DNA of 64,000 bases from Streptomyces sp. NBC_01463. GTDB lineage: Bacteria > Actinomycetota > Actinomycetes > Streptomycetales > Streptomycetaceae. The DNA is taken from the NCBI GenBank assembly GCA_036227345.1, contig CP109468.1:6634001-6698000 (forward strand). Reading direction: 5' to 3'. The notes under the pieces are model-generated. The model did no database searches. It saw only the letters and a list, made by a program, of their open reading frames with translations, and was not told where the DNA came from. Positions 6,510 to 58,900 of the stretch are shown here, piece by piece. Made by a program: the position numbers and the translations under genes. Within the stretch, counting starts at the first letter, position 1. Each line of letters opens with the position of its first letter.

Positions 6510-6556
6510 GCGAACCTGTAGGCGAGCCCTAAGGGCCGCTTCGTCTGTGGGAAGGC

Positions 6557-45640: not shown

Positions 45641-46612
45641 ATGAATCTTGCCTACATCCCCAGCCCGTCGACCGGCGTGATCGATCTCGGACCGATCCCG
45701 CTCCGCGGCTACGCGTTCTGCATCATCATCGGTGTCTTCGTCGCCGTCTGGTTCGGCAACAAGCGCTGGGTCGCCCGAGGCGGCAAAGCCGGCACTGTCG
45801 CCGACATCGCCGTCTGGGCCGTGCCCTTCGGCCTCGTCGGCGGAAGGCTCTACCACGTCATCACCGACTACCAGCTGTACTTCAGCGACGGTGAGAACTG
45901 GGTGGACGCCTTCAAGATCTGGCAGGGCGGCCTCGGTATCTGGGGTGCGATCGCGCTCGGCGCGGTCGGTGCCTGGATCGGCTGCCGCCGCCGCGGGATC
46001 CCGCTGCCCGCCTGGGCCGACGCGCTCGCCCCCGGAATCGCCCTGGCCCAGGCCTGCGGCCGCTGGGGCAACTGGTTCAACCAGGAGCTGTACGGCCGGG
46101 AGACCGACGTCCCGTGGGCGCTGAAGATCAGCGAGGGCCCCAACCGGGTCGCCGGCACCTACCACCCGACGTTCCTGTACGAGTCGCTGTGGTGCATCGG
46201 TGTGGCGCTCCTGGTGATCTGGGCCGACCGCCGCTTCAAGCTCGGACACGGACGGGCGTTCGCGCTGTACGTCGCCGCGTACTGCGCGGGCCGCGCCTGG
46301 ATCGAGTACATGCGCGTCGACGAGGCCCACCACATCCTGGGCCTGCGTCTGAACGTGTGGACCGCGCTGATCGTGTTCGTGCTCGCGGTGGTGTACATCG
46401 TGATCTCGGCGAGGGTGAGGCCGGGCCGCGAGGAGATCGTCGAGCCGGAGACGCCCCAGACGCCCGTGTCCACGGACGCGGCCGATGCCGGGGACGCCGA
46501 AGACGGGGAGTCCGGCGAGGACCGGGAGCCCGGCGACGTGAAGCCGGTCGAGTCCGCGTCCGAGGAGGACGCGCCGAAGACGAACGGTGAGGCGGAGACG
46601 GCCAAGGGCTGA
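45641..46612 (+). CDS. lgt: Prolipoprotein diacylglyceryl transferase
   Basis: Transfers diacylglycerol from phosphatidylglycerol to the lipobox Cys of prelipoproteins, in the cytoplasmic membrane. 323 residues with about seven membrane helices. The Lgt signature GRWGNWFNQELYG is present, as are the catalytic-region His in GGRLYHVITDY and the conserved RAWIEYMRVDE. An acidic tail of about 65 residues rich in Glu, Asp and Ala is typical of actinobacterial Lgt. ATG 45641; no clear Shine-Dalgarno. Confidence 0.97.
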   Translation: MNLAYIPSPSTGVIDLGPIPLRGYAFCIIIGVFVAVWFGNKRWVARGGKAGTVADIAVWAVPFGLVGGRLYHVITDYQLYFSDGENWVDAFKIWQGGLGIWGAIALGAVGAWIGCRRRGIPLPAWADALAPGIALAQACGRWGNWFNQELYGRETDVPWALKISEGPNRVAGTYHPTFLYESLWCIGVALLVIWADRRFKLGHGRAFALYVAAYCAGRAWIEYMRVDEAHHILGLRLNVWTALIVFVLAVVYIVISARVRPGREEIVEPETPQTPVSTDAADAGDAEDGESGEDREPGDVKPVESASEEDAPKTNGEAETAKG

Positions 46613-46633
46613 CACCGACCGCACCCACCACTT

Positions 46634-46666
46634 CGAGGGGCCGCCGAATGATTCGGCGGCCCCTCG
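46634..46666. terminator. Bidirectional terminator after lgt
   Basis: 16-bp perfect arms CGAGGGGCCGCCGAAT (46634-46649) and 46651-46666, practically a continuous palindrome, between lgt and the converging CitE-like operon. Confidence 0.9.
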
Positions 46667-46694
46667 TCATGCGCTGCCCGCGGGCGCCAGGTGC

Positions 46695-46713
46695 CCTCAA
46701 TCGCCGGACGGGC
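46695..46713. repeat. Streptomyces intergenic repeat (copy 2), overlapping a stop codon
   Basis: The same 19-base word as at 16410-16428. Read on the minus strand it supplies the last codons (Pro-Ser-Gly-Asp) and the TGA stop of the CitE-like gene. Confidence 0.65.
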
Positions 46714-47518
46714 TCGATTCCGCCAGGGCCAGCGTGCGGTGGGCCTGGGCCACCACCGCCGCGTCGACGAAGCGGCCGTCCGGCAGGGCCAGCGCGCCCG
46801 CCTCTTCCCGGGCCGCCTCGACGATCTCGTGCGCGGCCTCCACCTCCTGCGGCGTCGGCCGGAACGCCCGCTCGATCACCGGGAGCTGCCGGGGATGGAT
46901 CGCCGCCCGGCCGAGGAAGCCGAGGGCCCGGCCGTGGGCGCAGGACGTCCACAGCCCGTCCAGGTCCCGGACGTCCGGGAACACCGACTGGGTGGGCGGG
47001 GCGAGACCGGCCGCCCGGGCCGCGACCACCACCCGGCTGCGCGACCAGTCCAGCCCCGTGTCGTCCCGGACCCCCAGATCGGCCCGCAGGTCCGCCTCGC
47101 CCAGGGCGATGGAGCGCACCTGGGGATGGGCGGCGGCCACCGTGTACGCGTGCTCGATGCCGAGCGCCGACTCCAGCAGCGGACAGAGCGCGACGCCGGG
47201 GGCGAGCGCCGCGATGTGATGGACGGACGCCGCGTGCGTGATCTTCGGCAGCCGCAGCTCGGCGAGGCCCGGCAGCCCCGCCAGGGCCAGCACGTCCGCC
47301 TCCGTGTGGACCCGGACGTGGACCGGGGCCGCGGCGGGGGAGGCCGGTGCGGAGAGCAGTTCGGCGGTGGCCGACCGCGCGTACTCCTTGCGGTCGGGGG
47401 CGACCGCGTCCTCCAGGTCGACGATCACCACGTCCGCCCCCGAGTCCCGTGCCTTGCGGACCACGTCCGGCCGGTCGCCGGGGACGTACAGCCAGGTCAG
47501 CGGGGTCTCGGCGGTCAC
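46697..47518 (-). CDS. HpcH/HpaI aldolase / citrate lyase beta-like (CitE-like) protein
   Basis: A 273-residue CitE-like lyase, usually acting on CoA thioesters of malyl or citramalyl type with Mg2+. Motifs: LYVPGDRPDVVRKARDSGADVVIVDLEDAV (the metal and CoA region), LCPLLESALGIEHAY with the catalytic Glu, and GEADLRADLGV. The final residues come from a repeat element. GTG 47518 overlaps the CoA-transferase stop (GTGA). Last gene of the seven-gene minus-strand operon. With the CaiB/BaiF transferase it probably forms a two-step activation and cleavage of a dicarboxylic or hydroxy acid. The exact substrate is unknown. Confidence 0.85.
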   Translation of the reverse strand: MTAETPLTWLYVPGDRPDVVRKARDSGADVVIVDLEDAVAPDRKEYARSATAELLSAPASPAAAPVHVRVHTEADVLALAGLPGLAELRLPKITHAASVHHIAALAPGVALCPLLESALGIEHAYTVAAAHPQVRSIALGEADLRADLGVRDDTGLDWSRSRVVVAARAAGLAPPTQSVFPDVRDLDGLWTSCAHGRALGFLGRAAIHPRQLPVIERAFRPTPQEVEAAHEIVEAAREEAGALALPDGRFVDAAVVAQAHRTLALAESSPSGD

Positions 47519-48714
47519 AGGACACGCTCCGCCCGCAGGGCCGCGATCTCCGGGCCGCTCAGACCGAGGCCGGTGAGGATCTCCTCGGTGTCCGCCCCGT
47601 GCGGCCGGCCCGCCCAGCGGATCGACCCGGGCGTCCCGGACAGCCGGAAGAGGACGTTCTGCATCCGCAGCGGGCCCAGCTCCGGGTCGTCGACCTCCGT
47701 GATGGAGTCCAGGGCCCGGTACTGCGGGTCCTCCATCACGTCCCGGACGTCATGGATCGGCGCGATCGCCGCCTCCGCCTTCTCGAACGCGGAGATCGCC
47801 TCCTCCCGGGTGCGCCGGGAGATCCAGTGGCCGACCGCCTCGTCGAGCTCGTCGCTGTGCTCGGCGCGGGTGGCACCCGAGGCGAACCACGGCTCGTCGA
47901 TCAGCTCCGCCCGCCCCACCAGACGCATCACGCGTTCCGCGACGGACTGCGCGGAGGTGGAGACGGCCACCCACTGGCCGTCCGAGGTGCGGTAGGTGTT
48001 GCGCGGGGCGTTGTTGCGCGAACGGTTGCCGGTGCGCGGCTGGACGTACCCCAGCTGGTCGTACCAGAGGGGCTGCGGGCCGAGCACCGTCAGGATCGGC
48101 TCGATGATCGCCATGTCGACGACCTGGCCCTCGCCGGTGCGGTCCCGGCCGGCCAGCGCGGCCATCACGGCGAACGACGTGGCGAGCGCGGCGATCGAGT
48201 CGGCCAGACCGAACGGCGGCAGTGTCGGCGGGCCGTCCGGCTCCCCGGTGATCGCCGCGAACCCGCTCATCGCCTCCGCGAGCGTGCCGAAGCCGGGCCG
48301 GTGCGCGTACGGACCGAACTGACCGAAGCCCGTGACCCGCACCAGCACCAGCCGCGGGTTGACCGCGTGCAGCTCCGCCGGGCCGAGCCCCCACCGCTCC
48401 AGCGTGCCCGGCCGGAAGTTCTCGATGATCACATCGGTGTCGGCGGCGAGCCGCAGCAGGAGATCACGGCCGTCCGGGCAGGACAGGTCGAGGGTCAGAT
48501 TGCGTTTGTTGCGGCCGAGCAGCTTCCACCACAGGCCGATCCCGTCCTTGGCCGGCCCGTGCCCCCGGGACGGATCGGGCTTGGCCGGATGCTCGACCTT
48601 GATCACGTCGGCGCCGAAGTCGCCCAGCACGGTGGCGCAGAGGGGGCCGGCGAAGAGCGTGGCGAGATCGAGGACGCGCAGCCCGGTCAGGGGCGCCTCG
48701 CCCGGGGCGCTCAT
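47515..48714 (-). CDS. CaiB/BaiF-family CoA-transferase
   Basis: A 399-residue class III CoA-transferase. Typical segments: TGLRVLDLATLFAGPLCATVLGDFGADVIKVEHPAKPDP, the catalytic-region NFRPGTLERWGLG, and GFG in RVTGFGQFGPYAHRPGFG, with GLADSIAA later. It should move CoA between an acyl-CoA donor and an acid. ATG 48714 overlaps the ribokinase stop, and its own stop overlaps the CitE-like start. The nearby lyase suggests the acid is then cleaved. Family members are broad, so this remains a family-level call. Confidence 0.88.
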   Translation of the reverse strand: MSAPGEAPLTGLRVLDLATLFAGPLCATVLGDFGADVIKVEHPAKPDPSRGHGPAKDGIGLWWKLLGRNKRNLTLDLSCPDGRDLLLRLAADTDVIIENFRPGTLERWGLGPAELHAVNPRLVLVRVTGFGQFGPYAHRPGFGTLAEAMSGFAAITGEPDGPPTLPPFGLADSIAALATSFAVMAALAGRDRTGEGQVVDMAIIEPILTVLGPQPLWYDQLGYVQPRTGNRSRNNAPRNTYRTSDGQWVAVSTSAQSVAERVMRLVGRAELIDEPWFASGATRAEHSDELDEAVGHWISRRTREEAISAFEKAEAAIAPIHDVRDVMEDPQYRALDSITEVDDPELGPLRMQNVLFRLSGTPGSIRWAGRPHGADTEEILTGLGLSGPEIAALRAERVL

Positions 48715-49595
48715 GCGGCGTCGATTTCGCTGCGGTACGGCATGGCGACCGAGGCGCCCGGCTTCTGTACGCAGAGCGCGGCGGCCGACGAGGCCCAGGC
48801 GATGGCCTGCGGCACCGGCCGGCCCTCGCCGATCGCCACGGCGAGCGTGCCGACGAAGGTGTCCCCGGCGCCGGTGGTGTCGACGGCGGTCACCTCGGGG
48901 GCGGGGAAGTGGACGGTCCGGCTGCCCCGCGCCGCGTACAGACAGCCCTTGGCGCCGAGCGTGATGACGACCGCCGGGACCTGGCTGAGCAGGACCTCGG
49001 CGGCCGCGTGCGGTTCGGACTGCCCGGACAGTTCGGCCGCCTCGTGCTCGTTGGGGATCAGCAGGTCGACGCAGTCGAGGAGTTCGGCGGGCAGATCCTG
49101 TACGGGGGAGGGGGTGAGGACGGTCCGCACGCCCTGGGCGTGACCGGCCCTGGCCCCCTCGATCACGGCGGACATCGGCAGTTCCAGCTGGAGCAGCAGC
49201 AGATCGGCCTCGGCGATCGCGGCGATCTCGCCCGGTCCGAGCGCGGTGACGGTGCCGTTGGCGCCGGAGATGACGACGATCGCGTTGGAGCCCTTGCCGT
49301 CCACCACGATGTGCGCGGTGCCGCTGGGTCCCGCGGCGGTGTGCAGCAGGTCGGTGTCGACGCCCGAGTGCTCCAGGTTCTCCCGCATCCGGGCGCCGTA
49401 CTCGTCGTCGCCGACCGCGCCGATCATCATCACGTCGCCGCCCGCGCGGGCGGCGGCGACGGCCTGGTTGGCGCCCTTGCCGCCGGGAACGGTGCGGAAC
49501 TCCCTTCCGGTGACGGTCTCCCCGCGCTCCGGGGCCCGGTCGACGTAGGCCACAAGATCCATATTGGTGCTGCCGAGCACCGCGACTCTGGTCAT
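48711..49595 (-). CDS. rbsK: Ribokinase
   Basis: A 294-residue PfkB-family sugar kinase most like ribokinase: GSTNMDLVAYVDRAPERGET, the ribose-binding PGGKGANQAVAAARAGG, ITLGAKG and the anion-hole/catalytic DTTGAGDTFVG (catalytic Asp in GAGD). It phosphorylates ribose to ribose-5-phosphate with ATP. ATG 49595 overlaps the upstream hydrolase stop (ATGA). No ribose importer is encoded here, so its ribose probably comes from inside the cell, from the ADP-ribosylglycohydrolase-type enzymes of the same operon. That link is inference. Confidence 0.9.
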   Translation of the reverse strand: MTRVAVLGSTNMDLVAYVDRAPERGETVTGREFRTVPGGKGANQAVAAARAGGDVMMIGAVGDDEYGARMRENLEHSGVDTDLLHTAAGPSGTAHIVVDGKGSNAIVVISGANGTVTALGPGEIAAIAEADLLLLQLELPMSAVIEGARAGHAQGVRTVLTPSPVQDLPAELLDCVDLLIPNEHEAAELSGQSEPHAAAEVLLSQVPAVVITLGAKGCLYAARGSRTVHFPAPEVTAVDTTGAGDTFVGTLAVAIGEGRPVPQAIAWASSAAALCVQKPGASVAMPYRSEIDAA

Positions 49596-50974
49596 GGGCG
49601 GAGTGCCTCCTCGTGGGTGAGCCGGTGGGTCAGATCGGCGAGGGCGTCGAAGCCGACCGAGTCGAAACCGGGGACGGACGTGGCGAGCCGGTTCTTCAGC
49701 GGGGTGGTCCACCGCTCGGGCAGCGCGTCCGGCCGCCCGGCCAGCAGACCGGCGAGCGAACCGGCGGTCGCCCCGTTGGAGTCGGTGTCCCAGCCGCCGG
49801 ACACCGCCCGGCAGACCGAGCCGCTGAAGTCGCCGCCGGCGTGGGTCAGGGCGGCGGCGAGCAGGGCCGCGTTGGGCAGCACATGCACCCAGTGGTACCG
49901 GCCGTACGCCGCGTGCAGCCGGTCCACGACCGTATCGAAGTCCCGCTCCTGGCGGGCGGCGGTGATCCCGTCCCGTACGGCACGCGCGAACCGCGAGTGC
50001 GCGGGCACCACCCGCAGGCCGGCGGCCAGGCACCCGTGCACATCGGCCTCCCCGCCGGCGGCCTCGGCCAGCGCCGCCGCGGTGAACATCGCGCCGTACA
50101 CCCCGTTCCCGGTGTGGGTGAGGACCGCGTCGCGGTGCGCCTGTTCCGCCGCGGCGGCCGGGTCGCCGGGGTGGGTCCAGCCGTGCACGTCGGCCCGGAT
50201 CTGCGCCCCGATCCACTCCCGGAACGGATTGCGGTGGCGGGCGGTGTCCGGTGGTTCGAGACCGTCGAGCAGGTTGCGGTACGCGATCCGCTCGGCGGTG
50301 AACGTCCGGCCCGCCGGAAGCTCCTCCAGCCAGAGCCTGGCGAGATCCGCGGTGCTGAACGAGGGGCCGTGGCGCTGGATCAGCAGCACGGTGAGCAGGG
50401 GGTAGTTGAGGTCGTCGTCCTCCGGCATCCCGTCGATGTTCTCGGCCAGCGAGGTGGCTGCGGAGCGCCGGTTCCAGGGATAGGTGGCGGCCAGGGCCGG
50501 GGGCAGGCCACGGGCGGTGAACCAGGTCCTCAGCGGCCAGTTGCCGGTGGCCCGGGCCAGGGCGCGGATGCCTTCGAGCGGCAGCTTCTCGACCGGTTTT
50601 CCCAGCAGACAGCCCGCGGCCCGGCCCAGCCAGGCCGCGTGCAGCCGTTCGCGGTCCACGGCGGCAGGTTCGGTGCGGGGGCGCGGCCACTGCGGGCAGG
50701 CGGCCCGGATCGCGTCGATGCCGGTCGGTTCGTCGTCGGCCAGCGGGCTCTCCAGCAGGGCGAGTTCGTCCAGCAGGTGCTCGGCGACCGCGCGCAGCCC
50801 GGGCGGGGCCGGGGCAGCGGAGGCGCCCGCGCGGTCCGGCGCGGGCGAGCCGCCGGCCTCGTACCACCGGCGCTCGATGTCCCGCGCGTCCCGCCCGTCC
50901 TCGGCCGCCTGCCGCAGCTCGTGCCCGACCAGGTCCTCCGGCTGCACCCAGGTGGCGCGCACCGTGGTGGTCAC
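49592..50974 (-). CDS. ADP-ribosylglycohydrolase-family protein (copy D)
   Basis: A 460-residue member of the ADP-ribosylglycohydrolase (DraG/ARH) superfamily, with about 110 extra N-terminal residues. The first metal motif reads GRAAGCLLGKPVE, with Cys where Asp is usual. The middle one is PEDDDLNYPLL and the last SGGWDTDSNGATAGSLAG, so the C-terminal Asp pair is kept. This sub-type may not act on ADP-ribosyl protein. The first codon GTG at 50974 overlaps the stop of copy C, and its stop overlaps the rbsK start. Substrate unknown; likely an N- or O-riboside. Confidence 0.85.
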   Translation of the reverse strand: MTTTVRATWVQPEDLVGHELRQAAEDGRDARDIERRWYEAGGSPAPDRAGASAAPAPPGLRAVAEHLLDELALLESPLADDEPTGIDAIRAACPQWPRPRTEPAAVDRERLHAAWLGRAAGCLLGKPVEKLPLEGIRALARATGNWPLRTWFTARGLPPALAATYPWNRRSAATSLAENIDGMPEDDDLNYPLLTVLLIQRHGPSFSTADLARLWLEELPAGRTFTAERIAYRNLLDGLEPPDTARHRNPFREWIGAQIRADVHGWTHPGDPAAAAEQAHRDAVLTHTGNGVYGAMFTAAALAEAAGGEADVHGCLAAGLRVVPAHSRFARAVRDGITAARQERDFDTVVDRLHAAYGRYHWVHVLPNAALLAAALTHAGGDFSGSVCRAVSGGWDTDSNGATAGSLAGLLAGRPDALPERWTTPLKNRLATSVPGFDSVGFDALADLTHRLTHEEALRP

Positions 50975-52173
50975 GGCCGGCCCGCCAGCGCGGTGAAGGC
51001 GGCCTCGTGGGTGCGGCGGGCGGCAGTGTCCCGGGCGAACACCTCACGGGCGACGTCCGCCAGGTCGAGTGCCGGGGCGTGCAGATCGAGCCTGCTGGCC
51101 TCGCCGACCGTGCGCACCCAGTCCGCCGGGACCGCCCGCTCGCCGTGCAGCGCGCCCGCGATGGCGCCGCTCATCGTGGCGATCGAGTCGCAGTCCCGCC
51201 CGTAGTTGACCGAACCGAGCACCGACTGCCGGTAGTCCCCGTCCGCGACCAGCAGCATCCCGAGGGCGACGGGGAGTTCCTCGATGGCGTGCAGCCGGGA
51301 CGGGCGGCGGGCGCCGAGCGAGGGGGCGCGGTAGTCGGGGCCGACCGTGTCGAAGGGGGCGACGGCCTCCCGCAGCGGGACGATGGCCGTCTCGAAGTCC
51401 CGGTGACCGGCGGCCGTTTCGCAGACCGCCTCGATCGCGGCCCGGGTGCCGTCCTTGGCGAGCGACAGGCACGTCCCGACGACGCTCGCGGGCGTCGCCC
51501 CCGGCACGCAGGCCGCCGCCACCGCGGCCGCGAAGACACCGGCCGCCTCCCTGCCGTAGCTGGACTGGTGGGCGCCCGCGACATCCAGCGCCTCGGCGTA
51601 CGCGGCCCGCGGATCCGCCGCGTTCACCAGGCCGACCGGCGCCATGTACATCGCCGCACCGCAGTTGACGATGTTCCCCGAGCCCGCCTCGCGCGGGTCG
51701 ACGTGGCCGTAGTGCAGCCGGGCGACGATCCACTTCTCGGCGAGGAAGATCCGCTGCAGCGGCAGCGCCTCCGCCTCCAGCTCCGGAATCCAGCGGGGGT
51801 TCGAGATCAGCTCCGGCACGAGGTGGTCGGCGACGGAGTACGCGTCGAGATGGCCGCGGACCTTCCCGTACACCCGGACCAGCGCATGGGTCATCAGGGT
51901 GTCGTCGGTGACGTGCCCGTCGCCCTTGTGGTACGGGGCGACGGGGCGGGCGGTGCGCCAGTCCTCGCCGGCCCAGGGGCCGACGACACCGGTGACCCGC
52001 CCGCCGTGGCGCGCCACGATCTGCTCCGGGGAGTAGCCCTCGACCGGACCGCCGAGCGCGTCGCCGACGGCGGCGCCGACGAGCGCGCCGGCGATCCGGT
52101 CATCGAGGGTGGGCGCCGCTGGTGTCGTGGCGGGTGCGGACCTCGTGGGCGCCGTGGGCGCGGTGGATGTCAT
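50971..52173 (-). CDS. ADP-ribosylglycohydrolase-family protein (copy C)
   Basis: 400 residues. All three metal-binding motifs of the DraG/ARH family are intact: GAAVGDALGGPVEG (about 33-46), GHVTDDTLMTHAL (TDDT at 89-92) and YGRDCDSIATMSGAIAG near 340. It should therefore bind two Mg2+ and cleave a ribosyl bond. An Ala/Thr/Pro-rich 24-residue N-terminus precedes the domain. ATG 52173 has GGTGGA about ten bases upstream; GTG 52188 is an alternative. Either start lies inside the end of copy B, an overlap of about 75-90 bases. Its stop overlaps copy D. Confidence 0.88.
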   Translation of the reverse strand: MTSTAPTAPTRSAPATTPAAPTLDDRIAGALVGAAVGDALGGPVEGYSPEQIVARHGGRVTGVVGPWAGEDWRTARPVAPYHKGDGHVTDDTLMTHALVRVYGKVRGHLDAYSVADHLVPELISNPRWIPELEAEALPLQRIFLAEKWIVARLHYGHVDPREAGSGNIVNCGAAMYMAPVGLVNAADPRAAYAEALDVAGAHQSSYGREAAGVFAAAVAAACVPGATPASVVGTCLSLAKDGTRAAIEAVCETAAGHRDFETAIVPLREAVAPFDTVGPDYRAPSLGARRPSRLHAIEELPVALGMLLVADGDYRQSVLGSVNYGRDCDSIATMSGAIAGALHGERAVPADWVRTVGEASRLDLHAPALDLADVAREVFARDTAARRTHEAAFTALAGRP

Positions 52174-53377
52174 GTCCGAATTGTCCACCCGGGGGCACCG
52201 GTTCCGTGTCTGCGAGCAGCCCGGCGAGTTCGATCAGATCCGTGCCCGCGAAACGGGGCAGCGCACACCCCGCCAGGGTGCGGCACGCCTCGCGCCAGCC
52301 GTCGGGCACGGAGCCGACGGAGCCGAGCGCCCCGGTCAGCGCCCCGGCCAGCGCGGGCGCGGAGTCCGCGACCCGGGAGAGGCAGGCCGCCGACGGCACC
52401 GCCTGCGCGATCTCGCCGCGGGCCGCGGTGGCCAGGGCGAGGGCGACCGGGACGGTCTCGGCCGCGGCGATCCCGTAGCTGTAGACGTGGTCGACGATCT
52501 GATGCTCCAGCACGGGGACGAGGGCGAACGCGCCGGCCTTCTCACCGGCGAAGTCCCGGGCGATCCGGACCGCGTGGGCGGCGTTGCGGGCGATCTCGGT
52601 GCCGTCGGGGAGCTGGTCGAGCGCGGCGTTCACCGCGGTGTCCACGTCCGCCCCGCCGAGCGCCTCGGCGATCGCGGCGGCCATCGCCCGCGCCCCGTGC
52701 ACCCCGTCGCCGTCCTGCGTGTAGCGGGCGTCGAACTCCGCGAGGTCGGCCGCAGCCCCGGGATCGCCGGGGTGCACCACCGCCAGCACGGCGGCCCGCA
52801 CGCACGCCGCGTCGTCGAAGTAGTGCGGGTTGTCGTGGCCGGTCGCGGGCGGGCGGAGGCCCGCGGCGAGGTTGCCGAGCCCGGCCCGCACCGAGATCCG
52901 GGCCCGCAGCGGCAGCACCGCCGACTCCACCTCGGGCGCCCGGGCGGCCGCCGCGGCGACCTCGGCGGCCAGCGCGTTCCACGCCGCGTCGACGGCCGCC
53001 CGCATCCGTCGCCCGGGGGAGAGGTCCTGCAGTGCTCCGGCCGCGGAGGTGAGCACCGTCCCGGCGGCGAACGCCGCCCATTCGGCGTCGTCGGACGGGC
53101 CGAGCCGCAGTGGCTCGGGCGGCTGGTTGAGCGCGATGGGGACCGGCAGTGTGGTCGTCGCGTTCTGCTCGGCGAAGGTGTCCAGCTCGCGGGTCAGCCG
53201 CCGGGTCCACTCCGGCATCCGGGCGGCCCGGTGCCGCGCGGCCGGCCACCCGGCGGCGTCCCCGGCGGCCAGCCCGAGCAGCAGCCCCTCGATCCTGGCC
53301 CGGCGCCCGGTGGAGTCCCGGGCCGGAGCGGCGGCACCGGGGTGCGTGGTGGGGGAGGTGCGGTTCGCCGTGGTCAT
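52100..53377 (-). CDS. ADP-ribosylglycohydrolase-family protein (copy B, degenerate motifs)
   Basis: 425 residues, recognisable as an ADP-ribosylglycohydrolase superfamily member (GLLLGLAAGDAAGWPAARH, GPSDDAEWAAFAAGTVL). The C-terminal DxDS metal motif is replaced by SRVADSAPALAGALTG. Metal binding may thus be incomplete, and the protein could be a different hydrolase or a pseudo-enzyme partner. ATG 53377 overlaps the copy A stop (ATGA); the end runs about 75 bases into copy C. Substrate unknown. Confidence 0.82.
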   Translation of the reverse strand: MTTANRTSPTTHPGAAAPARDSTGRRARIEGLLLGLAAGDAAGWPAARHRAARMPEWTRRLTRELDTFAEQNATTTLPVPIALNQPPEPLRLGPSDDAEWAAFAAGTVLTSAAGALQDLSPGRRMRAAVDAAWNALAAEVAAAAARAPEVESAVLPLRARISVRAGLGNLAAGLRPPATGHDNPHYFDDAACVRAAVLAVVHPGDPGAAADLAEFDARYTQDGDGVHGARAMAAAIAEALGGADVDTAVNAALDQLPDGTEIARNAAHAVRIARDFAGEKAGAFALVPVLEHQIVDHVYSYGIAAAETVPVALALATAARGEIAQAVPSAACLSRVADSAPALAGALTGALGSVGSVPDGWREACRTLAGCALPRFAGTDLIELAGLLADTEPVPPGGQFGHDIHRAHGAHEVRTRHDTSGAHPR

Positions 53378-54540
53378 CGTCCCGCCACCGTTCCGGCGCC
53401 GTCCGCGCCCAGGCCGTCCGCCCCGTCCGTCGCCGCCACCGGCCCCGGCCCGTCCGGGTCCTCGGCAGGGTCGTCCGTCTCGTCCGGTGTCAGCAGTTCC
53501 GCGATGTCCAGCACGTGGTAGCCGCGCATCGACGGCAGGCAGCTGCCGCGGACCGGGCCGATCGCGTCCGCCCAGTTGCGCGGGATGGCGGACGCCCCGT
53601 GCAGCGCGCCGGCCAGGGCGCCCGCCACCGCTGCCGTCGTATCGGCGTCGCGGCCCATGTTGACCGCGGTCAGCACCGCCGTACGGAAGTCGCCGCGTGC
53701 CGCCGCGAACGCGCCGAAGGCCAGCCCCACCGCCTCCGGTGCCAGGTCCGTCCACGGATATCCGCCCACGACGACGGCCGACCGCACCGCCCGCTCCATC
53801 GTCAGCCGGTCGGGATACGGGCGCTGCGCCGCCGTCACCGCCCGGCGCAGCGAACGGGCCGTCCACGAGTCCATCGGTACGACGGAGAGCGCGGCGGCGA
53901 TCATGGAGGTGACCCCGGCCCCGGTCATCGCGGCCGCCACCCCGGCCGCCACCGCCTGGCCGCCGTAGATGCCCTCGCCGTCATGGCTGACCCGGCCGTC
54001 CACCGCGACCAGCCGGGCCGCCTCGGCCGGCCGGCCCGCCGCGAAGACACCGAAGGGCGCCGCCCGCATCGCGAGACCGTCGCTCCAGGCGTGCCGGTGC
54101 TGGGCGGAGATGGGGGCGGCCAGGCCCCGGCGCAGGTTCTCCAGCGTGCCCCGTTCGCTGAAACCGGCGCCGCGGAACGGTCCCTCGTCCAGATCGGCGA
54201 TCCACAGGTGCCAGGCCCGCTCGACATGCGTGACGGTCAGCGCGGAGCCGTGCCGGGCCAGCAGCAGACCGGAGAAGATCGCGTACTCCGTGTCGTCCGT
54301 CCCCGCCGGGTCGTCGCTCACGAAGCCCTCGATCCGGCCCCAGCGGCGGCGGATCTCGGAGGGCCGCATGTTCTCCGCCGGAGCGCCCAGCGCATCGCCG
54401 ACCGCGAGCCCCAGGAGCGCACCCCTGGCCCGGTCGGCGGCGCCGCCCCGGGCCACGCCGGCAGGGCCCGGAGCCCCGCGCACCGCCGCCCGCGCGCCGT
54501 CCGTCCGCCGCTCTGCCGGATTTCCTGCGATCAGCTCCAT
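53374..54540 (-). CDS. ADP-ribosylglycohydrolase-family protein (copy A)
   Basis: 388 residues; first gene of the operon. Intact family motifs GLAVGDALGAPAEN (about 42-55), GTDDTEYAIF and NMGRDADTTAAVAGALAGALHG, so a working two-metal ribosyl hydrolase is expected. The last 45 residues are Asp/Gly/Ala-rich and probably disordered. ATG 54540 with GAAGGG nine bases upstream; the open frame beyond it runs into the divergent regulatory region and is not coding. The divergent neighbour is the VIT-family transporter, 262 bases away, with a large dyad between them. Confidence 0.88.
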   Translation of the reverse strand: MELIAGNPAERRTDGARAAVRGAPGPAGVARGGAADRARGALLGLAVGDALGAPAENMRPSEIRRRWGRIEGFVSDDPAGTDDTEYAIFSGLLLARHGSALTVTHVERAWHLWIADLDEGPFRGAGFSERGTLENLRRGLAAPISAQHRHAWSDGLAMRAAPFGVFAAGRPAEAARLVAVDGRVSHDGEGIYGGQAVAAGVAAAMTGAGVTSMIAAALSVVPMDSWTARSLRRAVTAAQRPYPDRLTMERAVRSAVVVGGYPWTDLAPEAVGLAFGAFAAARGDFRTAVLTAVNMGRDADTTAAVAGALAGALHGASAIPRNWADAIGPVRGSCLPSMRGYHVLDIAELLTPDETDDPAEDPDGPGPVAATDGADGLGADGAGTVAGR

Positions 54541-54660
54541 CGCGTCGACCCTTCGCTCGTGCCGAGCCAGTTCTCGTACCTGTGGGATCTGTGCCACGCG
54601 GAGCCCCGACAGAGGCCGGTAATCACTACAAAAGGGCCACTCGGATGACGCCCTTCGGAC

Positions 54661-54718
54661 AGCAAGGCAAGCCGTACCTACCTGGTCACACAGGGTGGTA
54701 AGTACGGCCTGCCTTGCT
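54661..54718. promoter_or_regulatory. Paired DtxR-like (iron/manganese) boxes
   Basis: Two inverted 22-base arms (54661-54682 and 54697-54718; 20 of 22 positions pair). Each arm resembles the 19-base DtxR/IdeR box TWAGGTWAGSCTWACCTWA: the left arm matches about 15 of 19 and the right about 13 of 19 by hand alignment. They lie about 85 bases before the VIT-family transporter gene and also in front of the divergent ADPRH operon. Confidence 0.5.
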
Positions 54719-54802
54719 GGCAGGAGCCGTTTTTCGTGCGTACTTTCGAGGGTGTCGAGGGGCCGGGGCGGGTGAAATCCGCTGCCGGAGAAGGGGAGAG
54801 CT

Positions 54803-55537
54803 GTGTCCATCATCGAGACCGACGCCGTACTGCACGAGGCGCACCGGGACAACCACACCCACCGGGATGTGAACGGCGGCTGGCTGCGCCCCGCGGTGTT
54901 CGGTGCCATGGACGGGCTCGTCTCGAACCTCGCCCTGATGACCGGAGTCGCGGGCGGGGACGTCTCGCACCGCACCATCGTGATCACCGGACTGGCCGGA
55001 CTGGCCGCCGGCGCCTTCTCGATGGCGGCCGGCGAGTACACCTCCGTCGCCTCGCAGCGCGAGCTCGTCGAGGCCGAGCTCGACGTCGAGCGGCGGGAGC
55101 TGCGCAAGCACCCCAAGGACGAGGAGCGGGAGCTCGCCGCGCTCTACGAGTCCCGCGGGGTCGAGACCGGGCTGGCCCGCGAGGTCGCCCGGCAGCTGTC
55201 GCGCGACCCGGAGCAGGCCCTGGAGATCCACGCCCGCGAGGAGCTGGGCATCGACCCGGGGGACCTGCCGTCGCCGCTCGTCGCCGCCGTGTCCTCGTTC
55301 GGCGCCTTCGCGCTGGGCGCGCTGCTCCCGGTGCTGCCGTATCTGCTGGGCGCGGACGCGATGTGGCCGGCCGTGCTGCTCGCCCTGGCCGGGCTCTTCG
55401 GCTGCGGCGCGGTGGTCGCCCGGGTCACCGCCCGCAGCTGGTGGTTCAGCGGGCTGCGGCAGCTGGTGCTGGGCGGCGCCGCCGCCGCGATCACCTACGG
55501 CCTGGGCGCCCTGTTCGGGGTCGCCGTCGGGGGCTGA
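54803..55537 (+). CDS. VIT/CCC1-family iron or manganese transporter
   Basis: A 244-residue VIT1/CCC1-type protein that moves Fe2+ or Mn2+ out of the cytoplasm. Membrane helices lie at about 30-50, 58-80, 158-178, 184-204 and 215-240. The family start HRDNHTHRDVNGGWLRPAVFGAMDGLVSNLALMTGVAGG is intact and carries the conserved Asp/Gly residues. A cytoplasmic acidic, Glu/Arg-rich region (about 80-150) is the metal-binding spur. GTG 54803 with GGGGAG upstream. The DtxR-like dyad upstream suggests metal-dependent control. It ends at a terminator. Confidence 0.9.
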   Translation: MSIIETDAVLHEAHRDNHTHRDVNGGWLRPAVFGAMDGLVSNLALMTGVAGGDVSHRTIVITGLAGLAAGAFSMAAGEYTSVASQRELVEAELDVERRELRKHPKDEERELAALYESRGVETGLAREVARQLSRDPEQALEIHAREELGIDPGDLPSPLVAAVSSFGAFALGALLPVLPYLLGADAMWPAVLLALAGLFGCGAVVARVTARSWWFSGLRQLVLGGAAAAITYGLGALFGVAVGG

Positions 55538-55560
55538 GCCCCGGAGCGGCGATGTCCCGC

Positions 55561-55590
55561 GGCCACGTGCACCCTCCGGTGCACGTGGCC
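55561..55590 (+). terminator. Terminator after the VIT-family gene
   Basis: 13-bp perfect arms GGCCACGTGCACC (55561-55573) and 55578-55590 with a CTCC loop. Confidence 0.85.
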
Positions 55591-55954
55591 GTAACGTGTG
55601 TGCCATCCGTGTGACGTACGTCCTGATCAGCGCCACTGGGCGGATCGGGCGTACGCGACGTAAAATGAGACTCTATGCAGGGCTACACATAAGTAGTCGT
55701 TACCCGGCGGTTTCGTTTGCTTTGCCGCCGGGCATGAGCCGTAGACACCGCAGGCAACGACGCCTGCTCTCTGCGGTCTCCCGGGCGCCGATCCTCCGAC
55801 TGCGACCCACCTCACCGTCACGACGGTGTCCGTATGTTGGAACGAGCTATCCGCTTCTTGAGAAGCGTCCCATCATGTAATCTGCACGAAATTTCGCAGA
55901 GGGCCAACGTCGTCCCTCGGCACTGCATATGCCACGACGACGACGGGAGAGCCG
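55591..55954 (+). promoter_or_regulatory. Long structured upstream region of gltB
   Basis: About 360 bases without a credible gene. TAAAAT at 55661 is the best -10 candidate. If used, the leader is about 280 bases and folds into several hairpins: CCCGGCGG/CCGCCGGG (55703-55732), a switch-like pair at 55747-55777, CACCGT/ACGGTG (55813-55828) and CGCTTCT/AGAAGCG (55852-55867). CGAAATTTCG at 55887-55896 is a 10-base palindrome. GlnR-like half-sites occur at 55699-55714. A reading frame at 55596-55880 has no ribosome binding site and I reject it as a gene. Confidence 0.5.
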
Positions 55955-58900
55955 ATGCGCACCGACGCCTGGTCGCCCATGGACGGTCGCCCCGCCCAGC
56001 AGGGGATGTACGACCCCCGCAACGAGCACGACGCCTGTGGTGTCGGTTTCGTAGCCACTCTGACCGGTGTGGCCGGCCACGAGCTGGTCGAGCAGGCGCT
56101 GACCGTACTGCGCAACCTCGAACACCGAGGCGCCACCGGATCCGAGCCCGACTCCGGTGACGGAGCCGGAATCCTGCTCCAGGTCCCGGACGCCTTCCTC
56201 CGCGAAGAGGTCCCCTTCGACCTCCCCGAGGCCGGTGCCTACGCCGTCGGCATCGCATTCCTGCCCGCGGACGACTCCACCGAGGCCGTCCGCAGTCTTG
56301 AGAAGATCGCCGCCGAAGAAGGCCTCAAGGTCCTCGGCTGGCGCGAGGTCCCGGTCACCCCCGACATCCTCGGCAACGGCGCCCGCGCCACCATGCCCGA
56401 GTTCCGCCAGCTCTTCGTCGCGGACGGCGAGAGCAGCGGCATCGTCCTGGACCGCAAGGCCTTCGTGCTGCGCAAGCGCGCCGAGCGTGAGACCGGGGTC
56501 TACTTCCCGTCGCTCTCCGCCCGCACGATCGTCTACAAGGGCATGCTCACCACCGGGCAGCTGGAGCCGTTCTTCCCGGACCTCTCCGACCGCCGCTTCG
56601 CCACCACGGTCGCGCTGGTCCACTCCCGCTTCTCCACCAACACCTTCCCGAGCTGGCCGCTCGCCCACCCGTACCGCTTCGTCGCGCACAACGGCGAGAT
56701 CAACACGGTCAAGGGCAACCGCAACTGGATGAAGGCCCGCGAGTCCCAGCTCGCCTCCAGCCTCTTCGGTACGGAGCAGCTGGACCGGATCTTCCCCGTC
56801 TGCACCCCGGACGCCTCCGACTCGGCCTCCTTCGACGAGGTCCTGGAGCTGCTCCACCTCGGCGGCCGCTCGCTGCCGCACTCCGTCCTGATGATGGTGC
56901 CCGAGGCGTGGGAGAACCACGCCTCGATGGACCCGGCCCGGCGCGCCTTCTACCAGTACCACTCCACGATGATGGAGCCCTGGGACGGCCCGGCCTGCGT
57001 CACCTTCACCGACGGCACCCAGGTCGGCGCGGTCCTCGACCGCAACGGTCTGCGCCCCGGCCGCTACTGGGTCACCGACGACGGCCTCGTCGTCCTCTCC
57101 TCCGAGGTCGGCGTCCTGGACATCGACCCCGCCAAGGTCGTCCGCAAGGGCCGCCTCCAGCCCGGCAAGATGTTCCTCGTCGACACCGCCGAGCACCGCA
57201 TCATCGAGGACGACGAGATCAAGGCGTCCCTCGCCGCCGAGCAGCCCTACCAGGAGTGGCTGGAGACGGGCGAGATCGAGCTGGAGGACCTCCCCGAGCG
57301 GGAGCACATCGTGCACACGCACGCCTCCGTCACCCGCCGCCAGCAGACCTTCGGCTACACCGAGGAAGAGCTCCGCGTCCTCCTCGCCCCGATGGCCCGC
57401 ACCGCCGGCGAGCCGCTCGGCTCCATGGGCACCGACTCGCCGATCGCCGCGCTCTCCGCGCGCCCCCGGCTGCTCTTCGACTACTTCACCCAGCTGTTCG
57501 CCCAGGTCACCAACCCGCCGCTGGACGCCATCCGCGAGGAGCTCGTCACCTCGCTGCACTCCACGCTGGGCCCGTCGGGCAACCTGCTGGAGCCGACCGC
57601 CGCGTCCTGTCGCAGCGTCACGCTCCCCTTCCCGGTGATCGACAACGACGAGCTGGCCAAGCTCATACACATCAACGCCGACGGCGACATGCCGGGCATG
57701 AAGGCCGCCACGCTCTCCGGTCTCTACCGGGTCGGCGGCGGCGGTGAGGCGCTGGCCGCGCGGATCGAGGAGATCTGCACCGAGGTCGACGCCGCCATCG
57801 AGGACGGCGCCCGCCTGATCGTCCTGTCCGACCGGCACTCCGACGCCGAGCACGCGCCGATCCCGTCGCTGCTGCTCACCTCGGCCGTCCACCACCACCT
57901 CATCCGCACCAAGCAGCGCACCCAGGTGGGCCTGCTGGTCGAGGCCGGTGACGTCCGCGAGGTCCACCACGTCGCGCTGCTGATCGGCTACGGCGCCGCC
58001 GCGGTCAACCCGTACCTCGCCATGGAGTCCGTCGAGGACCTGGTCCGGGCCGGCACCTTCATCGAGGGCATCGAGTCCGAGCAGGCCATCCGCAACCTGA
58101 TCTACGCGCTGGGCAAGGGCGTCCTGAAGGTCATGTCCAAGATGGGCATCTCCACCGTCGCCTCCTACCGCGGCGCCCAGGTCTTCGAGGCCGTCGGCCT
58201 CGACGAGGACTTCGTCGACCAGTACTTCAACGGCACCGCCACCAAGATCGGCGGCGCCGGACTCGACGTCGTCGCCAAGGAGGTCGCCGCCCGGCACGCC
58301 AAGGGCTACCCCGCCTCCGGCATCTCCGCCTCGCACCGCGCGCTGGAGATCGGCGGCGAGTACCAGTGGCGCCGCGAGGGCGAGCCGCACCTGTTCGACC
58401 CGGACACGGTCTTCCGCCTCCAGCACGCCACCCGCAACCGCCGGTACGACATCTTCAAGCAGTACACGGGCCGGGTGAACGAGCAGTCCGAGCGCCTGAT
58501 GACGCTGCGCGGACTCTTCGGCTTCACCTCGGACCGCGAGGCCGTCGACATCGACGAGGTCGAGTCCGTCTCCGACATCGTCAAGCGCTTCTCCACCGGC
58601 GCCATGTCGTACGGCTCGATCTCCCGCGAGGCGCACGAGACCCTCGCCGTCGCCATGAACCAGCTGGGCGGCAAGTCCAACACCGGCGAGGGCGGCGAGG
58701 ACGCCGACCGGCTCTACGACCCGGCACGCCGCTCCTCCATCAAGCAGGTCGCCTCCGGCCGCTTCGGAGTCACCAGCGAGTACCTGGTCAACGCGGACGA
58801 CATCCAGATCAAGATGGCGCAGGGCGCCAAGCCCGGCGAGGGCGGCCAGCTGCCCGGCCACAAGGTCTACCCGTGGGTCGCCAAGACCCGGCACTCCACC

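Follow-up and report, generated by a model that had tools for sequence, protein, structure and literature searches.

A conserved Streptomyces operon joining four ADP-ribosylglycohydrolase-superfamily genes to ribokinase, CoA-transferase and lyase genes: a possible route for importing and degrading a ribose-containing compound

The ADP-ribosylglycohydrolase (ARH) superfamily is known through its characterised members, the ARH/DraG enzymes. Here, we focus on a set of seven genes in Streptomyces sp. NBC_01463, namely four ARH-superfamily genes (A to D), a ribokinase gene (rbsK), a family III (CaiB/BaiF) CoA-transferase gene (CaiB) and a citramalyl-CoA-lyase-type gene (CitE), located in a 64,000-nucleotide stretch of contig CP109468.1; this stretch is referred to as the window, and positions are counted within it. 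Judging from gene order and gene numbers, SCO2028-SCO2031 are presumably the Streptomyces coelicolor counterpart of A-D. In the accessible part of one report these four genes are among eight uncharacterised DraG/ARH homologues (PMC9411070), and the accessible part of a second one likewise lists SCO2028-SCO2030, but not SCO2031, as uncharacterised homologues (PMC5087735). In a third, neither SCO2028 nor SCO2030 was detectably active on U-alpha-ADPr, one substrate only (PMC13036486). No description of the seven-gene set was found in a literature search, most subscription papers being outside its reach.

Several described systems resemble parts of this locus. DraG/ARH hydrolases share with A, C and D the Pfam family fold and both motif signatures, and are set apart by the operon and importer context described here, by the missed equivalog cut-offs and by the absence of a motif Asp in B. 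Itaconate degradation (RipABC, or ict-ich-ccl) also combines a CoA-transferase with a citramalyl-CoA-lyase-type enzyme; however, the window operon contains no hydratase, its CitE misses the RipC_Ccl cut-off, and ARH enzymes, ribokinase and a sugar importer are not known to be part of that pathway. LacI-regulated ATP-binding cassette (ABC) sugar-uptake operons are matched by relatives of our locus in having LacI, two permeases, a substrate-binding protein (SBP), intracellular hydrolases and a sugar kinase, while the ARH-type hydrolases, the often attached beta-hydroxy-acid cleavage module and the unlinked importer of the window's genome are points of difference. The methylaspartate pathway (mesaconate to citramalate to acetate and pyruvate) has AtuA+DUF4387 in common with the operon as found in Firmicutes, whereas no glutamate mutase, ammonia-lyase or fumarase was recognised in the ARH operons examined; citrate-lyase-type genes also occur in the methylaspartate glutamate-fermentation setting, as the accessible part of one source indicates (PMC4682846). 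Finally, yegTUV from Escherichia coli comprises a putative ADP-ribosylglycohydrolase, a putative sugar kinase and a putative nucleoside symporter, and resembles the uptake version of our locus in its transporter, hydrolase and kinase; it differs in its major facilitator superfamily symporter, its single hydrolase and its GntR-family regulator YegW/GgaR, and the accessible text mentions no CoA-transferase or lyase (PMC10819704).

Overall, the locus is of a familiar kind, an uptake-and-catabolism operon, built from unusual parts. We propose, with a probability of roughly one half, that it takes up and breaks down a ribose-containing compound, whose products would be ribose-5-phosphate and probably an acid of the citramalate or citrate type, which would then be split. 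The seven genes would represent the cytoplasmic half of this pathway, and we infer each catalytic step, the nature of the ribosyl bond, the identity of the acid and the A-B complex as follows. The ancestral form would have had a LacI-type regulator ahead of the enzymes and of an ABC importer of the sugar type. The compound taken up would carry ribosyl linkages, from which C, D and A (probably with a degenerate B) would release ribose, and ribokinase would convert ribose to ribose-5-phosphate. The other part of the compound would be a beta-hydroxy acid of the citramalate, citrate or 2-substituted-malate type; the CaiB-type enzyme would make its CoA thioester, which the CitE-type lyase would cleave to acetyl-CoA and an oxo-acid (pyruvate in the case of citramalate). 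In most Streptomyces loci examined, the window included, no LacI is left at the locus, and an importer, where there is one, is encoded at another place in the genome. Support is good for the operon as such and for its link to an importer, and the ribosyl chemistry is likely.

Gene content, conservation, importer linkage, the unlinked importers, the differing acid modules, the Asp loss in B and the gene fusions are read directly from the sequences. The four distinct ARH genes of the original prediction, together with rbsK, CaiB and CitE, were borne out by open reading frames and Pfam: ADP_ribosyl_GH (PF03747, cut-off 26.2) scored 210.6, 108.3, 173.5 and 168.3 bits for A, B, C and D, whose pairwise identity is 21.5-31.1%, and these are four of ten matches in the whole genome. 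The six overlapping junctions that had been described were also recovered, five of them of 4 bases (A/B, C/D, D/rbsK, rbsK/CaiB and CaiB/CitE) and B/C of 74 bases, or 89 if the GTG at 52188 is the start of C; the start of A is uncertain, as relatives outside Streptomyces begin approximately 35 residues later. Moreover, a gene order confined to this strain had been named beforehand as a result that would speak against the prediction. This comparison was run, and the order A-B-C-D-CaiB-CitE between VIT/gltB and lgt was found in 23 of 23 Streptomyces loci fetched at the site, so that it is not a chance arrangement (we take the plus-strand gene from 55955 onward, beyond VIT1, to be gltB), with 4-base couplings possible at many junctions of the fetched loci, start codons being putative. 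rbsK is seemingly incomplete in one locus (L055), and a second operon copy (L059), preceded by permeases and SBP but lacking rbsK, stands elsewhere in genome G182. When D was searched over 197 genomes of the order, matches at E <= 1e-30 were obtained in 146, all in one of six genera; 137 genomes had strong matches, and nine were set aside as weak, paralogue-level ones (one of them, G039, holds B). D paralogues at approximately 41-47% identity (L060-L067) had no A, B, C, rbsK or CaiB alongside.

The set extends beyond Streptomyces. A profile of B, chosen as distinctive, had matches in 63 of 394 genomes of the class, in 12 of 137 genera, and a scan of named genomes provided the best 80 of at least 431 confirmed relatives, ranked by likeness to the Nanopelagicaceae B and forming an uneven sample. 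The joint analysis comprised 107 loci (27 from the class search and 80 named), 59 from Streptomyces (OK074 and papulosa included) and 48 from outside it, with genes found by similarity; L118 and L133 are one contig, and L104 and L121 come from one genome. A and B were adjacent on one strand in 105 of the 107, the remaining two (L179 and L181) beginning at B. The Streptomyces loci contained A in 57, B in 59, C in 57, D in 57, rbsK in 47, CaiB and CitE in 56 each, LacI in 14, and permeases and SBP in 15 each. Outside Streptomyces, A and B were found in 48, C in 39, D in 42, rbsK in 33, CaiB in 26, CitE in 24, AtuA and DUF4387 in six each and CitF in one, as well as ABC permeases in 47, LacI in 43 and SBP in 43 (with Pfam used for two representatives). 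The minimal set, LacI-permease-permease-SBP-C-A-B-CaiB-CitE, is that of a 1.3 Mb Ca. Nanopelagicaceae genome (L118 = L133). In 11 of the 48 loci outside Streptomyces, a protein of approximately 640 residues, whose C-terminal domain is FGE-sulfatase/EgtB-like and whose long N-terminal part is unassigned (e.g., L105:2687-4609), sits between rbsK and CaiB.

We then considered the acid-cleaving genes. An acid module is present in 56/59 Streptomyces loci and in 33/48 loci outside the genus, in the latter as CaiB+CitE (26), CitDE+CitF (1) or AtuA+DUF4387 (6, all Firmicutes). The Asp of the CaiB motif PFGLADS, by its position presumably the active-site residue of family III CoA-transferases, is invariant in 81/81 aligned relatives, and so are, in 79/79 aligned relatives, the Arg and acidic motif residues of CitE that we assume to be functional. 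The best NCBIfam family for CitE was RipC_Ccl (NF038242), at 146.3 bits against a cut-off of 375 (188.5 for the L110 homologue), and the citE model gave 122.7 bits against 443.4. A Bacteroidetes locus (L139) has a CitD-CitE fusion and CitF in place of CaiB+CitE, its CitF lying above the curated cut-off (508.0 vs 501.45) and its CitE part below (289.4 vs 443.4); in L176, a CitDE match next to CitE was regarded as a cross-match. In all six Firmicutes loci (L154, L186, L189, L197, L200 and L201), AtuA+DUF4387 lies within the operon, in two gene orders, with Pfam support for both proteins in L201 and for AtuA only in L154. Relatives of the L201 AtuA occur in 49 records of a plasmid collection, and in two of the four examined AtuA+DUF4387 relatives (47-50% identical) stand directly after methylaspartate ammonia-lyase; the pair is a candidate for the citramalate-cleaving step of the methylaspartate clusters. 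Since all three modules are associated with cleavage of citrate-, citramalate- or 3-hydroxyglutarate-like acids, an acid of that type is the best guess, and a citramalate- or citrate-type acid, between which the present comparison does not distinguish, is a reasoned one. The literature search found no paper on DUF4387 and, among the papers listed, no report of AtuA as a citramalate lyase and no fitting report of a citramalate riboside. Together with the ribokinase score given below, the frequency of the module outside Streptomyces supports the catabolic route originally predicted, in which ribose is freed and an acid broken down.

The alternative that survives best is that two separate functions share one transcript, the ribosidases and ribokinase acting on ordinary nucleosides or oligosaccharides, and CaiB+CitE on an unrelated acid. 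yegTUV pairs hydrolase, kinase and symporter without acid genes in the accessible part of its description (PMC10819704), and 15/48 loci outside Streptomyces show no acid module. Nevertheless, the module accompanies the hydrolases in most loci of both groups, and that of the Firmicutes is unrelated; one shared substrate is the easiest explanation, and we consider two separate functions unlikely, though worth keeping in mind.

Regarding the importer, the original prediction had taken the absence of a transporter and a regulator to mean that the substrate may arise inside the cell, for instance from NAD or ADP-ribosylated molecules. The window locus itself indeed has neither the importer nor the regulator of a LacI-regulated ABC sugar-uptake operon, but comparison does not bear that conclusion out: permeases adjoin the genes in 47/48 loci outside Streptomyces and in 15/59 within it, seven Streptomyces loci (L146, L158, L180, L185, L190, L198 and L209) have the importer at the window's own site, between gltB or VIT and A, and the window's genome encodes one elsewhere. 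In the seven at-site loci the arrangement is LacI-permease-permease-SBP (L180 ends after D). In the window's genome, an SBP relative with both permeases beside it lies approximately 4.7 Mb from the operon (G000:C1:1969591-1970850); it is 53% identical to the L110 binding protein (457.9 bits), the next match of the genome reaching 54.6 bits. The closest solved relatives of the importer are varied sugar-binding proteins. Concatenated importer proteins gave a tree in which the nine unlinked importers from Streptomyces group as one clade (support 1.0) and 16 linked ones as another (0.87), and the two join at 0.999. The importer was present in 109/137 genomes with D versus 9/60 without it (odds ratio 22.1, uncorrected for kinship), compared with 93/137 versus 19/60 (odds ratio 4.6, itself significant) for a control importer that matched 112 genomes; a second control importer from the window's genome matched only seven. 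In 5/109 genomes (G084, G087, G148, G168 and G182) importer and D are no more than 20 kb apart, and in 104 they are unlinked, as judged by eye from coordinates and with separate contigs taken as unlinked. The simplest history would be an ancestral operon with LacI and importer in front, followed in most Streptomyces by the loss of LacI and the separation of the importer from the enzymes; the direction of this move is one that we infer.

Sixteen of the 23 scanned loci have a palindrome with core AAACGTTT (e.g., CTGTAAACGTTTCCAG) ahead of LacI. The 16-base pattern derived from it had no match with up to two mismatches in 23 importer-less loci, none with up to three in unlinked-importer loci or L059, and the LacI-operator-like palindrome none with up to three in the intergenic stretch between A and VIT1; over the whole window the pattern had a single three-mismatch match, at 6547, which may be due to chance. 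The neighbours of the unlinked importer, glycosyltransferase-like, APH-like and HEPN_SAV2148 proteins among them, gave no functional clue; a HEPN_SAV2148-cluster gene was near it in 6/7 Streptomyces loci examined (e.g., L213). Directly upstream of the linked permeases, NHL-repeat/esterase-like and beta-lactamase-family hydrolase genes are found in loci from Bacteroidetes and Ignavibacteriota (L139:134-5925 and L141:1811-5937).

It could be argued that the pathway was ancestrally one of uptake, and that importer-less Streptomyces now use the enzymes on an internal compound, such as a secondary-metabolite or cell-wall riboside. LacI and the operator-like site were not seen at importer-less loci, 28/137 genomes with D have no importer match, the motifs are kept in A, C and D, and B is 74-88% identical within Streptomyces. 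However, the importer is retained in 109 of these 137 genomes, unlinked in 104 and above the control-importer background, and we consider such a switch improbable.

We also examined the ARH proteins themselves. In A, the DD of the first motif is kept in 103/104 sequences (one row being gapped) and the DxD of the second in 104/104, one A frame with a stop having been left out; C (96/96) and D (96/96) keep both motifs, which we assume to be metal-binding. In contrast, the first of the two Asp residues of the second motif is missing from B in 93/93 sequences (14 further frames with a stop left out); B does not have the signature of an active enzyme but retains strongly conserved residues of its own. 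In a tree of 63 sequences, which leaves out the A-B fusion row of L145, each of the four forms a cross-phylum clade (A 0.835, B 1.0, C 1.0 and D 0.994), by which a recent tandem duplication was rejected; B groups with A2 of L139, L141 and L208 (0.954), and that group with A (0.978). A and B form one open frame in L163, L182 and L207 (3/131 loci by pattern) and in L145, which was missed by the pattern and found by extraction, so that further fusions may exist. B is proposed to be a non-catalytic or altered partner of A, and its consistent motif loss, together with the occasional fusion to A, suggests an A-B heteromer. The DraG equivalog TIGR02662 (cut-off 337.05 bits) gave 78.8, 52.4 and 19.0 bits for A, C and D and no match for B, the Tri1 equivalog cut-off was also far from reached, and by sequence the closest solved relatives of A are DraG structures. 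The TIGR02152 ribokinase cut-off of 299.65 bits was exceeded by all three kinases tested (window 309.3, L110 307.1 and L201 312.5 bits).

A different chemistry, in which the ARH-type enzymes cut non-ribose sugar bonds or non-glycosidic bonds and the kinase acts on another sugar, would fit the general sugar type of the importer, with its varied solved relatives, and the altered motif of B. Nevertheless, the kinases score as ribokinases and the ARH motif residues are kept in A, C and D, which makes this option rather unlikely. A role in reversing or recycling endogenous ADP-ribosylation or NAD breakdown products could be suggested by the characterised superfamily members being ARH/DraG enzymes, by the DraG structures closest to A and by a window locus without importer or regulator. 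Even with SCO2028-SCO2031 classed as DraG/ARH homologues in the accessible part of one report (PMC9411070), this is quite improbable, and turnover of ADP-ribose or NAD inside the cell was rejected as the original role on the importer and regulator of relatives, given the ABC permeases and LacI linked outside Streptomyces and in some Streptomyces, the linked acid-cleaving modules, the DraG and Tri1 cut-offs far from reached, and the lack of detectable activity of SCO2028 and SCO2030 on U-alpha-ADPr, the one substrate in the available portion of that source (PMC13036486).

Several observations weigh against the proposed uptake-and-catabolism pathway. rbsK is present in only 47/59 Streptomyces and 33/48 other loci; it was not found in five of the 23 site loci (L046, L047, L049, L057 and L069), and it is missing, together with D, from the minimal Nanopelagicaceae set. 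Fifteen of the 48 loci outside Streptomyces have no acid module (L101, L111, L112, L113, L116, L117, L119, L120, L121, L137, L141, L144, L177, L192 and L208), with the locus end close by in L101, L120, L177 and L192 but not in the other eleven. As CitE and the CitE part of L139 miss curated cut-offs, the acid cannot be read off from them; CitDE+CitF comes from a single metagenome-assembled locus, and the HpcH_HpaI lyase family is common to it and to CaiB+CitE, leaving AtuA+DUF4387 as the sole unrelated replacement. In addition, the AtuA clusters of Neorhizobium and Klebsiella contain fumarate hydratase and no methylaspartate gene. Lastly, 28 genomes with D gave no importer match, and the genus-level association is uncorrected for kinship and shared by the control importer.

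Table 1. Coordinates of the operon, its flanks and selected features of related loci (window positions unless a locus is named; start codons of the fusions are guessed)
Feature	Position	Strand	Evidence
Gene A, ARH-superfamily hydrolase, motifs GTDDTEY and GRDADTT	53374-54540	minus	ORF, Pfam
Gene B, ARH-superfamily protein, second motif SRVADS without first Asp of DxD	52100-53377	minus	ORF, Pfam
Gene C, ARH-superfamily hydrolase, motifs TDDT and GRDCDS	50971-52173	minus	ORF, Pfam
Gene D, ARH-superfamily hydrolase, motifs EDDDLN and GWDTDS	49592-50974	minus	ORF, Pfam
rbsK, ribokinase	48711-49595	minus	PfkB (Pfam), TIGR02152
CaiB, family III (CaiB/BaiF) CoA-transferase	47515-48714	minus	CoA_transf_3 (Pfam), PFGLADS motif
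CitE, citramalyl-CoA-lyase-type lyase	46697-47518	minus	HpcH_HpaI (Pfam)
lgt, flanking gene	45641-46612	plus	
VIT1 gene, divergent from A	54803-55537	plus	Pfam
Intergenic stretch between A and VIT1	54541-54802		
A-B in-frame fusion	L163:8753-11185		
A-B in-frame fusion	L182:8606-11182		
A-B in-frame fusion	L207:8513-11218		
A-B in-frame fusion	L145:8984-11005		
AtuA+DUF4387 pair, Firmicutes ARH operon	L201:11347-13029		
AtuA+DUF4387 pair, methylaspartate (glutamate mutase) cluster	L225:5986-7670		
AtuA+DUF4387 pair, methylaspartate (glutamate mutase) cluster	L224:5995-7716		

Between A and VIT1, a long inverted repeat (AGCAAGGCAAGCCGTACC...GGTAAGTACGGCCTGCCTTGCT) with a T run after it lies at 54661-54749, in front of VIT1, and the DNA near 54697-54749 is alike in 11/23 importer-less site loci and in 5/6 importer-bearing ones. 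An Rfam search of 46400-56000, which includes this repeat, gave no match at the gathering threshold.

Taken further, these loci might represent a widespread, undescribed pathway for ribose-citramalate-type conjugates, in which ARH enzymes work as nutrient hydrolases, with active A and inactive B subunits forming one obligate complex, and in which AtuA+DUF4387, because it replaces CaiB+CitE in the Firmicutes version, constitutes a new type of citramalate lyase; we regard this extended view as tentative and, as a whole, doubtful. If true, AtuA+DUF4387 would fill a step described as unclear in the methylaspartate cluster of enterobacteria, and the proposal bears on the fate of citramalate in enterobacteria, as far as the accessible part of that report describes it (PMC4682846). 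As importer, regulator and acid module are now named, the substrate can be sought, and SCO2028-SCO2031, as the presumed counterparts of A-D and known from the accessible part of their description as DraG/ARH homologues (PMC9411070), would gain a testable context other than ADP-ribosylation signalling.

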